Of a stretch of DNA of 64,000 bases, positions 11,193 to 32,777 are shown in pieces. The stretch is from NCBI RefSeq assembly GCF_000016185.1, contig NC_011420.2, forward strand, positions 3,077,001 through 3,141,000, written 5' to 3'. Below the pieces are notes generated by a model. That model had not been told where the DNA came from, did no database searches, and saw only the letters and a list, made by a program, of their open reading frames with translations. The DNA comes from Rhodospirillum centenum SW (GTDB taxonomy: Bacteria; Pseudomonadota; Alphaproteobacteria; Azospirillales; Azospirillaceae). The translations under genes and the position numbers were made by a program. How positions within the stretch are numbered: position 1 is the first letter of the stretch; each line of letters starts with the position of its first letter.

Positions 11193-12323
11193 TCAGATGT
11201 AATAGGCCTGGAGCGGCGCGAAACCGTTGAAGTTCACGGCCGAGTAGCTGGTGGTGTAGGCCCCGGTGGCGCGGATCGCCACGCGGTCGCCGATCCGGAG
11301 ATCCACCGGCAGCCGGTACTCCGCCCGCTCGTACAGCACATCGGCGCTGTCGCAGGTCGGGCCGGCCAGGATCACCGGCTCGGCCGGGCCGCCGTCGCGC
11401 TCCGTCTCGATCGGGTACTGGATCGCCTCGTCCATCGTCTCGGCCAGCCCGCCGAACTTGCCGATGTCGAGATAGACCCAGCGGCGCAGATCGTTGGCCG
11501 ACTTGCGCGAGATCAGCACCACCTCGGACTGGATGATGCCGGCATCGCCCACCATGCCGCGGCCCGGCTCCACGATGGTCTCCGGGATGCGGTTGCCGAA
11601 GTGGCGGCGCAGCGCCTCGTCGATGGCGAAACCGTACTCATCGGTACCCGGCACGTCGGTCCGGTAGCGCGTCGGGAAGCCGCCGCCCATGTTGACCATG
11701 CGCAGCGCCACGCCCTTCTCCTCCAGGTCGCGGAAGATCGCGGCCGTGGTGGACAGGGCGGCATCCCACTGGGCCAGGTCGCGCTGCTGGCTGCCGACAT
11801 GGAAGGAGACGCCGTAGGGCACCACGTCCAGGGCGGCGGCGCGCAGCAGCAGGTCGCGCGCCATCTCCGGATCGCAGCCGAACTTGCGCGACAGCGGCCA
11901 GTCCGCCCCCTCGCCGGAGGTCAGGATGCGGCAGAAGACGCGGCTGCCGGGGGCGTTGGCCGCGATCTTCTCCAGCTCCGCCTCGCTGTCGAAGGCGAAC
12001 AGGCGCACGCCCAGCTCGTAGGCGCGGCGGATGTCGGCGGCCTTCTTGATGGTGTTGCCGTAGCTGATCCGGTCGGGCGTGGCGCCGGCGGCGAGGCAGT
12101 CCTCGATCTCCGGCACGCTGGCCGTGTCGAAGGACGAGCCCAGGCCGGTCAGCAGGCGCAGGATCTCCGGCGCCGGGTTGGCCTTCACGGCGTAGTAGAT
12201 CTTCGCGTCCGGCAGGGCGCCGGACAGCCGGTCGTAATTGCGGGCGACGACGTCCAGATCGACCACGAGGCAGGGCGTGGCGGGACGGTTCTCGGCGAAG
12301 AATCGGGCAATCTTCTCGGTCAT
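11193..12323 (-). CDS. Fold-type III ornithine-type amino acid decarboxylase
   Basis: 376-aa PLP enzyme of the alanine-racemase/ODC fold (group IV decarboxylases: ornithine, lysine, diaminopimelate), which most likely makes putrescine from ornithine in the cytosol. The Schiff-base Lys47 is in YYAVKANP, the PLP-phosphate Gly loop is NMGGGFPTRY, EPGRGMVG binds the phosphate, and Cys324 of PTCDSADVLYE is the ODC catalytic cysteine donated to the partner subunit. FHVGSQQRD holds the PLP-stacking His. The length and CDSADV motif favour ornithine or lysine decarboxylase over LysA. It is distinct from fold-I SpeC/SpeF of enterics. A ~380-nt leader with a small ORF precedes it, suggesting post-transcriptional control by polyamine or amino acid. 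Confidence 0.92.
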   Translation of the reverse strand: MTEKIARFFAENRPATPCLVVDLDVVARNYDRLSGALPDAKIYYAVKANPAPEILRLLTGLGSSFDTASVPEIEDCLAAGATPDRISYGNTIKKAADIRRAYELGVRLFAFDSEAELEKIAANAPGSRVFCRILTSGEGADWPLSRKFGCDPEMARDLLLRAAALDVVPYGVSFHVGSQQRDLAQWDAALSTTAAIFRDLEEKGVALRMVNMGGGFPTRYRTDVPGTDEYGFAIDEALRRHFGNRIPETIVEPGRGMVGDAGIIQSEVVLISRKSANDLRRWVYLDIGKFGGLAETMDEAIQYPIETERDGGPAEPVILAGPTCDSADVLYERAEYRLPVDLRIGDRVAIRATGAYTTSYSAVNFNGFAPLQAYYI

Positions 12324-12430
12324 CTCAGGACTCCGAGGCGGCAGGCGGCCGGGATGTGCGGGAAACGGGAAACGCCGGGCCTCGCGGGCCCGGGATCGCT
12401 CAGGCAGGCCTTACGGCGGGCCTGGGCGGG

Positions 12431-12568
12431 TCACATACAGGGTTTGCTGCCGGAATCCGGAGACTGACCTGCGAAGCCCGTCGGTGCGGGCTGGACCTGG
12501 AAGGACAGGAACGCGGGAGAAAGCAGACAGGCGGGCGCGGTCGGCCCACCGACAACAACATCAACCAT
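12431..12568 (-). CDS. Candidate 45-aa leader ORF upstream of the decarboxylase
   Basis: A 45-codon frame begins at ATG 12568, just 5 nt after a GGAGG site, the best ribosome site in this leader, and ends 108 nt before the decarboxylase start. The product MVDVVVGGPTAPACLLSPAF... ends GSKPCM and has no recognisable domain. It may be a regulatory leader peptide like the speFL ORF that controls ornithine decarboxylase in enterics, but the sequences are not alike. Translation is not shown; it could be chance. Confidence 0.35.
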   Translation of the reverse strand: MVDVVVGGPTAPACLLSPAFLSFQVQPAPTGFAGQSPDSGSKPCM

Positions 12569-12709
12569 CGTAGCCTCCAATTCGCCGCCTTGTTTAAGGG
12601 ACGGTCGGGGGTACGCGTTGCGTCGTTGCATAACCCCACCGGGCTGACGGCGCCGCCCGTTGCGGGGGCGGGAGTGGGGGCCATAGGCACGTGCGCTGCG
12701 ACTGCGCGC

Positions 12710-12738
12710 TATATAGGGCAAGCCCCGGCGGCGCAAAA
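12710..12738 (-). promoter_or_regulatory. Candidate promoter of the decarboxylase transcript
   Basis: On the minus strand TTTTGC (12738-12733), 17 bp, then TATATA (12715-12710). This is an AT-rich -10 in GC-rich surroundings. It predicts a start near 12703 and so a leader of about 380 nt. Alphaproteobacterial ornithine decarboxylase genes are known to carry a structured speF leader RNA; whether this leader matches that motif needs a covariance search. Confidence 0.45.
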
Positions 12739-13084
12739 GGGATTTTTCGGCTACGGCGGCGCAGACGGACCCTGCACGGAGCGCCGGGCCCGCGGCGCTG
12801 CCCGGGGTCCAGAATCCGGGGCCGGCCTCTCCAGGAAAACCGAAGTCGTCGGCAGGGCCGGCAGGGGTCCAGAGGGTGGCGGACAGTCAAATCACCGCAG
12901 GGCGAAATCACATTTTCGCCACTTTCCCGGTCAAATTAGGACATAGGACGGTGGCTTCATCCTTCACAGGGGTCGCCACGGTGCGCACGAGACTCCCCGT
13001 CTCACGGTCCTTCTCCCGGGGTTTCCTTTTCAGGGGCCCCGATGACGGACACCCCGGCCAGCCTTGCCCCGGCTGGCGGATTTT
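12739..13084. other. Intergenic region before the triple terminator
   Basis: No protein gene is supported here. An inverted repeat GGCGAAA-TCACAT-TTTCGCC lies near 12900-12920. A smaller hairpin CCAGCC/GGCTGG followed by TTTTA lies just before the three strong terminators (13060-13084). A short plus-strand RNA ending in those terminators is possible, but no promoter is convincing. Confidence 0.35.
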
Positions 13085-13214
13085 ACGGCCACCGCAGCCA
13101 GCCCCCCGCGGTGGCCGTTTCTTTTTTTTACGGCCACCGCAGCCAGCCCCCGCGGTGGCCGTTTCTTTTTTACGGTCCCCGCAGCCAGCCTGCCGCGGGG
13201 ACCGTTTCTTTTCC
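13085..13214 (+). terminator. Three tandem intrinsic terminators
   Basis: Hairpins at 13085-13118, 13130-13162 and 13172-13205 each have an 11-bp stem (ACGGCCACCGC with GCGGTGGCCGT) around an AGCCAGCC-type loop. Each is followed by a T-rich tract: TTCTTTTTTTT, TTCTTTTTT and TTCTTTTCC. In the third copy both arms have changed together (ACGGTCCCCGC with GCGGGGACCGT), so pairing is kept. The polarity is plus strand only. Confidence 0.85.
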
Positions 13215-13434
13215 GTGCCGGCCCCGGGGGCCTGCTCCCTTCATCCTCACATCCGGTCACGGGGACCAACGCGCGATCCCGGCCGTTCATCCGGCCTGCG
13301 GCAAAGCGGCGTGCTTTCCCGCCCGTCCGCCGGAGTCTTGCCCGGTTCACAGCGCCGGCCGGGCGTGGCATGGTGCGCCCCCGCCGCCCGGCGCTCCGCC
13401 TCACCGTCACCGGGTCCCTCTGCTCCGGCCCCCC

Positions 13435-14103
13435 ATGCTCTCTGGCTCCATGCTCTTCGAAGGTCGTGACCTGATCTGCCTGCGCGGTGCCCGCGTCGTC
13501 TTCTCCGGCCTCTGCTTCGGGCTTGAGGCCGGCGGTGCCCTGGTGCTCGTGGGGCCCAACGGCAGCGGCAAGTCCAGCCTGCTGCGGCTGCTCTCCGGCC
13601 TTTCCAGGCCGTTCGCGGGCACCCTGCTGTGGGACGGCCGGCCGGTCGCCGACGATCCGGACGGCCATCGCGGCCGGGTCCGCTATGTCGGCCATCTGGA
13701 CGCGGTGAAGCCGGCCCTGACGGCGCAGGAGAATCTCGCCGGCTGGGCCGGGCTGCAGGGCGCCGCCGATCCCATGGCGGCGGCCGCCGCCGCGCTGGAG
13801 CGCTGGGACCTGGGGCACCTGGCCGAGGTGCCGGGCCGCTATCTCTCCGCCGGGCAGAAGCGTCGGGTCAATCTGGCCCGGCTCGCCCTGGCGCCGGCCG
13901 CCCTGTGGCTGCTGGACGAACCCTCGACCGCGCTGGACCGTGCCGCCGTGGCCCGGCTGGCGGCGGAGATCGCCCGCCACCGCCGCGACGGCGGCATGGT
14001 GGTGCTGTCCACCCACACCGATCTGGACCTGACCGATCCCGCGGTGCTGGACGTCTCGCACTTCGCCGTGGCGCCCGACGATGCGGAGGAGCCCGCGGCA
14101 TGA
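13435..14103 (+). CDS. ccmA: Heme exporter ATP-binding subunit CcmA
   Basis: 222-aa ABC ATPase of the CcmAB(C) complex, which drives release of holo-CcmE during cytochrome c maturation at the inner membrane. Walker A is GPNGSGKSS (residues 40-48), the signature loop is YLSAGQKRR, Walker B is LWLLDEPSTALD, and the switch His is in VVLSTHTDLDL. Length is typical. The start is ATG 13435 (ATG 13450 is an alternative); the frame upstream runs through the tandem terminators and is not coding. It overlaps ccmB by ATGA. It is insulated from upstream transcription by three terminators, so a promoter is expected between 13215 and 13434. Confidence 0.95.
   Translation: MLSGSMLFEGRDLICLRGARVVFSGLCFGLEAGGALVLVGPNGSGKSSLLRLLSGLSRPFAGTLLWDGRPVADDPDGHRGRVRYVGHLDAVKPALTAQENLAGWAGLQGAADPMAAAAAALERWDLGHLAEVPGRYLSAGQKRRVNLARLALAPAALWLLDEPSTALDRAAVARLAAEIARHRRDGGMVVLSTHTDLDLTDPAVLDVSHFAVAPDDAEEPAA

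Positions 14104-32700: not shown

Positions 32701-32777
<77 letters not shown>

Follow-up and report, generated by a model that had tools for sequence, protein, structure and literature searches.

A predicted small RNA gene with tandem terminators near ccmA in Rhodospirillum centenum

The closest studied counterparts of the locus described here are the alpha-r14 or cuckoo RNAs (NfeR1, SmelA075; RF02344), alphaproteobacterial small RNAs that carry several hairpins with C-rich, anti-Shine-Dalgarno-like loops. A three-hairpin layout is also found in the alpha-r7 RNAs (RF02342), and two hairpins with C-run loops in 6C RNA (RF01066), an actinobacterial family. In the passages of PMC10746234 and PMC3927594 that define alpha-r14, CCUCCUCCC lies in the unpaired part of each of the three hairpins, and the first of these sources gives the promoter signature as CTTAGAC-N17-CTATAT. 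The alphaproteobacterial RNAs of the alpha-R8 group (MmgR, SisA-D) combine a C-rich seed with an intrinsic terminator; according to the relevant sections of PMC12559287, they are recognized by a single-stranded UUUCCUCCCU core, through which SisA pairs with mRNA upstream of the start codon in reporter-based experiments. Ordinary tandem intrinsic terminators, finally, share with the present locus GC-rich stems followed by T tracts. The DNA analyzed here is a window of 64,000 nucleotides from R. centenum SW, in which three hairpins at 13085-13213 of the plus strand probably terminate a conserved small RNA gene that has a dedicated promoter and encodes a trans-acting RNA.

At this locus no Rfam family exceeds its cut-off. 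The alpha-r14 model scores 38.9 bits (E 2e-5 in a 1.2-kb scan) against a gathering cut-off of 58.8, and CCUCCUCCC is absent from 12944-13213, two reasons for rejecting membership. Genome-wide, RF02344 has no match in the host genome at E <= 1e-3 and passes its cut-off in none of 20 relatives and none of 14 control genomes. The RNA differs further in its linkage to ccmA and in its promoter box, which does not correspond to the CTTAGAC-N17-CTATAT signature as stated in the promoter passage of PMC10746234. The only two RF02344 matches at E <= 1e-3 in the 20 relatives (32.8 and 31.5 bits) both fall on the RNA locus, so a distant relationship to alpha-r14 is possible; ten other loci gave one weak match at E <= 0.05. 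Membership of alpha-r7 was likewise rejected (40.3 bits, E 4e-6 in the 1.2-kb scan, cut-off 60), and genome-wide this model matched none of the 20 relatives, the control genomes being silent as well. The alpha-R8 core UUUCCUCCCU does not occur in 12944-13213, and alpha-R8 genes usually adjoin a different gene. 6C RNA was excluded by its score (25.1 bits, cut-off 47), the penultimate loop here having four C, and 6S RNA by the lack of an RF00013 match in the window at the gathering threshold; the 6S match of the host genome sits elsewhere (C1:1865539-1865697). A plasmid-borne relative was rejected after a first search without match; a second one returned three short matches (E 0.3-1), one of which is a different terminator in Skermanella. 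In the main-text passages of open-access papers that were searched, no description of a ccmA-linked small RNA was found. The main text of the A. brasilense Sp245 small RNA paper contains neither ccmA nor any of six tested motif strings, and the RNA is not described in the available portions of the R. centenum ChIP/RNA-seq paper and the Magnetospirillum transcriptome paper.

Reading and folding of the locus bear out the first-pass annotation, which had described three tandem plus-strand hairpins with 11-bp stems and T tracts, the third changed on both arms with its pairing kept. The hairpins occupy 13085-13118, 13130-13162 and 13172-13205, or 13085..13129, 13130..13171 and 13172..13213 with their T tracts, and repeat at spacings of 45 and 42 nt. 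In each of them the 11-bp stem is followed by TTTCTTTT or a longer run. Folding energies are -22.4, -22.5 and -26.1 kcal/mol for copies 1, 2 and 3, with z-scores of -4.9, -4.8 and -5.7, and for each copy 0 of 200 shuffles folded equally well. Copy 1 is the conserved one and copy 2 has the same stem, while copy 3 has drifted: with respect to copy 1, a C-G pair has become T-A and an A-T pair C-G, two compensatory double substitutions that leave the stem intact. In all three hairpins a U tract comes immediately after a GC-rich stem, the defining arrangement of an intrinsic terminator. A generic terminator scanner reported none of them because its loop limit is 3-8 nt and copies 1 and 2 fold with loops of 11-12 nt. 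No plus-strand protein gene was seen just ahead of the hairpins, in agreement with the annotation; going upstream, the first convincing gene (11193-12323) is encoded on the minus strand.

The conservation claimed for the AGCCAGCC loop holds among the three copies of the window; relatives keep instead a run of C on the 3′ side of the loop, mostly GCCCCCC, which is broken and partly lost in copy 3. The shared AGCCAGCC is thus more probably a trace of duplication than a motif under selection, the C-run being the part that relatives keep. Unlike ordinary tandem terminators, these hairpins are conserved as the 3′ end of a particular RNA gene, and a triple copy was seen only in the host.

A conserved promoter box, covariation and presence through most of the family lend good support to the suggestion that an unannotated short RNA ends at the hairpins, with the correction that its predicted start lies nearer to 12944 than to 12740. 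The predicted RNA (12944..13127, plus strand) would measure ~184 nt up to the first terminator, its start being placed from the -10 element and its end from the T tract; read-through would give longer forms ending at ~13171 and ~13213. The 12944..13127 segment folds at -84 kcal/mol (z -2.9), and one of 200 shuffles did as well. The predicted fold includes a hairpin with a C-rich loop, GAGAC-TCCCC-GTCTC, at 12989..13003, similar to hairpins seen by eye in four other loci (L029, L034, L037, L043), and the penultimate hairpin CCAGCC-TTGCCCC-GGCTGG at 13058..13076. In 26 aligned loci the conserved box is followed by a variable stretch, then by a hairpin with a loop that is mostly GCCCC, and at the 3′ end by a single terminator with a C-run loop. 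Such a conserved intergenic unit, with its own terminator and a promoter recognized by conservation, is what is expected of an independent small RNA gene. At the level of sequence comparison, box, covarying hairpins and terminator form a conserved unit, whose terminator was seen in triplicate only in the host.

The promoter box ATCACATTTTCGCCACTTTC (consensus ATCAMAATTTCGCCAYTTTC) lies at 12907..12926 of the plus strand. With the terminator as anchor, so that the box itself played no part in aligning the 26 loci, 9 of its 20 columns are invariant. This count is the evidence retained, as the pattern behind the logo of a wider set of 38 distinct sequences itself demanded five invariant letters (GCCA and the final T). 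In this wider set a CCTAnAT block stands 6 nt beyond the box; in the host it reads CAAATT (12932..12937, plus strand) and would represent the -10 element, with a predicted start near 12944. A scan for consensus sigma-70 promoters found none at the RNA locus, which makes the involvement of an activator or of a special holoenzyme likely. The box was also recovered by an independent scan of named genomes with a pattern for the last two hairpins. Among the 33 records matched, 23 have the terminator as well as the box core, which stands 112-160 nt ahead of the penultimate hairpin; they belong to Azospirillum, Nitrospirillum, Skermanella, Oleisolibacter, one ‘Roseomonas’ record and three metagenome bins (Azospirillaceae, Rhodospirillaceae and Rhodospirillales). 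The other ten (Nocardia, Modestobacter, Pseudoflavonifractor, Roseivivax and six metagenome bins) have neither box core nor terminator and were taken as chance. In the host genome the 12-base core occurs exactly twice, at the RNA locus and in an apparent coding region, and with one mismatch six times, against three for the reversed control. A near match (CTTCGCCACTTT) on the minus strand at G000:C1:4185591-4185602 (L115) is accompanied by an AT-rich stretch at -10 distance and may perhaps mark a second member of a regulon.

Conservation extends through most of the host family, understood here as Azospirillum, Nitrospirillum, Skermanella and their kin. When 12900-13260 was used as a DNA query, matches came from 26 of 59 genomes, the host genome included, the best-kept parts being ~13048-13128 and a block near 12905-12945; L047-L050, which are extra pieces of loci already included or unrelated matches, were left out of the alignment. 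A covariance model named R1 was built from the last two hairpins; of the 82 family genomes, 75 contain a single strong match to it at 54-89 bits, 26 of these 75 having served to train it and 49 not. The seven genomes without such a match include all five of one genus (g5). R1 also produced 47 weaker second matches in family genomes (26-41 bits); ten of them were inspected and none has the upstream box, these being terminators of apparent coding genes or unclear cases. Weak R1 matches alone prove little.

Covariation was assessed in an alignment fitted to the model (A4), containing 44 matches in 37 distinct rows: 36 family loci, copy 2 of the host and 7 loci of other families. In this alignment 98.8% of cells pair, double changes occur at 10 of 16 pairs (5 of 6 in the penultimate hairpin), and the double-changed cells number 35, against 6.1 ± 2.0 in shuffles and at most 4 in slid controls, with the reservation that a model-fitted alignment leans towards its own structure. 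An earlier, unfitted alignment points in the same direction more weakly, with 6 double-changed cells against 1.3 and 3 double-changed pairs, which 14 of 500 shuffles attained. In the long alignment the terminator helix is the only one predicted by RNAalifold. The double changes preserve RNA pairing, which argues against the reading of the conserved segment as the gene of a small protein whose mRNA the hairpins would terminate. An ATG frame at 13042 does stay open through the hairpins, but among the 26 loci only the host has ATG at those columns, two having TTG, and indels are numerous near the start columns; this reading is very improbable. Still harder to sustain is that of a mobile or repetitive palindromic element of REP type. 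It would fit the tandem arrangement of the copies, but a pattern search of the 4,355,543-base host genome found no second array, with 75 matches at <=2 mismatches compared with 55 for the reversed control, and relatives present the same neighborhood.

Downstream of the hairpins, an open reading frame at 13435..14103 of the plus strand is taken to be ccmA, encoding the heme exporter ATP-binding subunit, following the label of the first-pass annotation; it is probably a separate unit. The main rival to an independent small RNA gene is that the segment constitutes a regulated 5′ leader of ccmA, whose hairpins would sense the heme or cytochrome state and whose terminator would act as an attenuator into the gene. 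The linkage is old: ccmA follows the RNA in 21 of the 26 family loci (at ~1.2 kb in L041) and in at least 8 of 32 genomes outside the family. A leader should always lie upstream of its gene, but five of the 26 loci (L032, L033, L036, L038, L039), all from one Skermanella-like genus (g7), have no ccmA in the 1.5-kb flank and still possess box, hairpins and terminator. In G006, 532 kb separate the RNA from the best match to ccmA. The RNA is therefore kept without an adjoining ccmA and is not only a leader of this gene. Furthermore, no competing anti-terminator appears in the single-sequence fold, and a -10-like element is present past the terminator, as expected of a separate ccmA promoter. This element was found in 27 of 47 loci, many of them close relatives and some genomes being counted twice, against 3% of letter-shuffled 342-nt stretches from other parts of the same loci; in 24 loci it reads GTGCTATAGC, and the host genome has no match to the pattern. 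Taken together, the attenuator reading is unlikely. In Azospirillum loci (e.g. L045, L046, L135), the conserved GTGCTATAGC stands 26-74 nt past the terminator and before ccmA, and looks like an extended -10 of ccmA itself.

The alternative already raised in the first-pass annotation, namely that the hairpins merely insulate the ccm operon from upstream plus-strand transcription, the upstream RNA being noise, would account for three strong terminators standing consecutively ahead of ccmA and for partial tail repeats at the same place in Azospirillum loci. It does not hold as the primary explanation, given that the single ancestral terminator belongs to the RNA. This terminator persists in the five loci lacking ccmA within the 1.5-kb flank, and it is conserved together with the promoter box and the covarying penultimate hairpin, so that insulation alone has a low probability, below that of a leader. 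Extra insulation of ccm may, however, be a reason for the presence of three copies in the host.

Outside the family, the small RNA gene is more thinly represented. In a class-wide sample of 385 genomes, R1 matched 37 at E <= 0.001, and 32 of the 37 do not belong to the family. At least eight of these 32 matches (G121, G193, G041, G144, G228, G405, G378, G379) lie 85-388 nt upstream of a ccmA relative on the same strand. Thirteen of the 32 were inspected, of which six were judged real (L084, L086, L087, L088, L089, L091) and seven chance-like; two further inspected matches adjoining ccmA, in G378 and G379, look real. The exact box pattern occurs in 10 of the 385 genomes, seven of them outside the family, against two for the reversed control, and two of the five family genomes in the sample lack it. 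Beyond the family, exact box and RNA stand together ahead of ccmA in G228, G050 and G202; the box matches in G371, G317, G265 and G344, where no such RNA is visible by eye, were taken as chance. Inspection of regions upstream of ccmA revealed the RNA also in G370 and G447, where three of the hairpins have the loops CCUCCCC, AUCCCCCC(C) and UCCCCC, and less certainly in G109, G261, G295 and G187. None of the RNA features were seen in 28 of the 39 outside-family loci judged in this way; 7 of 50 loci, without Walker motif, were left unjudged. In other families the loops read CCUCCCC and CCCCCCC. The RNA family at large probably exceeds what R1 can see. Upstream of ccmA in G378 (L220) and G379 (L221), weak R1 matches are situated inside clusters of C-loop hairpins, accompanied in L221 by CCTCCCC and a box-like AATTGCCACATTTC. 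In G295 (L206), two successive hairpins have the same loop context GGCGCCCCTCC and different stems, which may be a second instance of duplicated hairpins in this RNA.

Full terminators were counted from the first one to 170 nt past it. Of 47 loci, 38 carry a single copy, 8 carry two under a loose criterion (second stems of 8-11 bp), and the host genome is the only one with three. Azospirillum loci repeat part of the tail GGCCGTTTCTTTTT at the terminator site, which suggests that growth of the RNA 3′ end may recur. A broader scenario can be sketched, tentatively and with more doubt than confidence: an ancient alphaproteobacterial small RNA that lies ahead of cytochrome c maturation genes in many families, switched by a regulator through its strongly conserved 20-bp box, in which, in the host genome, terminator duplication would produce nested isoforms with one, two or three C-loops. 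If so, duplication of terminators would be a route to multi-hairpin anti-Shine-Dalgarno RNAs.

As to function, transcription, start site, Hfq binding, trans action and targets are predictions. Box (12907-12926) and -10 element (12932-12937) would start the RNA at ~12944; the transcript would fold into several hairpins with C-rich loops and end at the first intrinsic terminator, leaky transcripts ending at copy 2 or 3, with lengths of ~184, 228 and 270 nt. The UCCCC, GCCCC and GCCCCCC loops would pair with G-rich ribosome-binding sites of several mRNAs and lower their translation, and Hfq would probably bind the U tail. Trans action through loops covering G-rich ribosome-binding sites is the most likely mode by analogy, because the closest studied RNAs carry such loops. 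In 25 scored RNAs (L044 and L070 cut short by the regular expression, L121 left out), means per RNA are 58 C and 44 G, of which 24.6 C and 7.2 G are unpaired. Dinucleotide shuffles give 25.5 unpaired C and 7.7 unpaired G; unpaired C is thus not above the shuffles and the C-richness of the loops may be compositional, so the case for C-loops rests on invariant loop columns and not on enrichment. Should the small RNA gene be real, Rfam lacks a separate entry for an RNA that is kept through most of a bacterial family and occurs in several others; the promoter box would offer a handle on its regulator, the ccmA link would suggest a tie to cytochrome c, heme or respiration, and the triplicated terminator would be a natural example of the way in which multi-hairpin small RNAs may originate.

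Across the whole window, Rfam models exceed their threshold at a single place, a tRNA (Arg, CCT anticodon) on the minus strand at 32704-32777. A second conserved stretch is the leader (12323-12720, minus strand) of the neighboring gene, presumably an ornithine/lysine decarboxylase, where nucleotides are strikingly conserved in 14 aligned relatives and no Rfam match was obtained at E <= 5. It contains GCACGTGCC, preceded in most relatives by a TATATAG-like element, a CCCCAC/GTGGGG hairpin in many of them, and a segment beginning ATGCAACGACGYAACGCG (MQRRNA..., start at 12631). The corresponding frame is interrupted early in L022, L029 and L042 and undergoes a shift in L026; the stretch therefore has the appearance of an RNA element, or else of a very short leader peptide.
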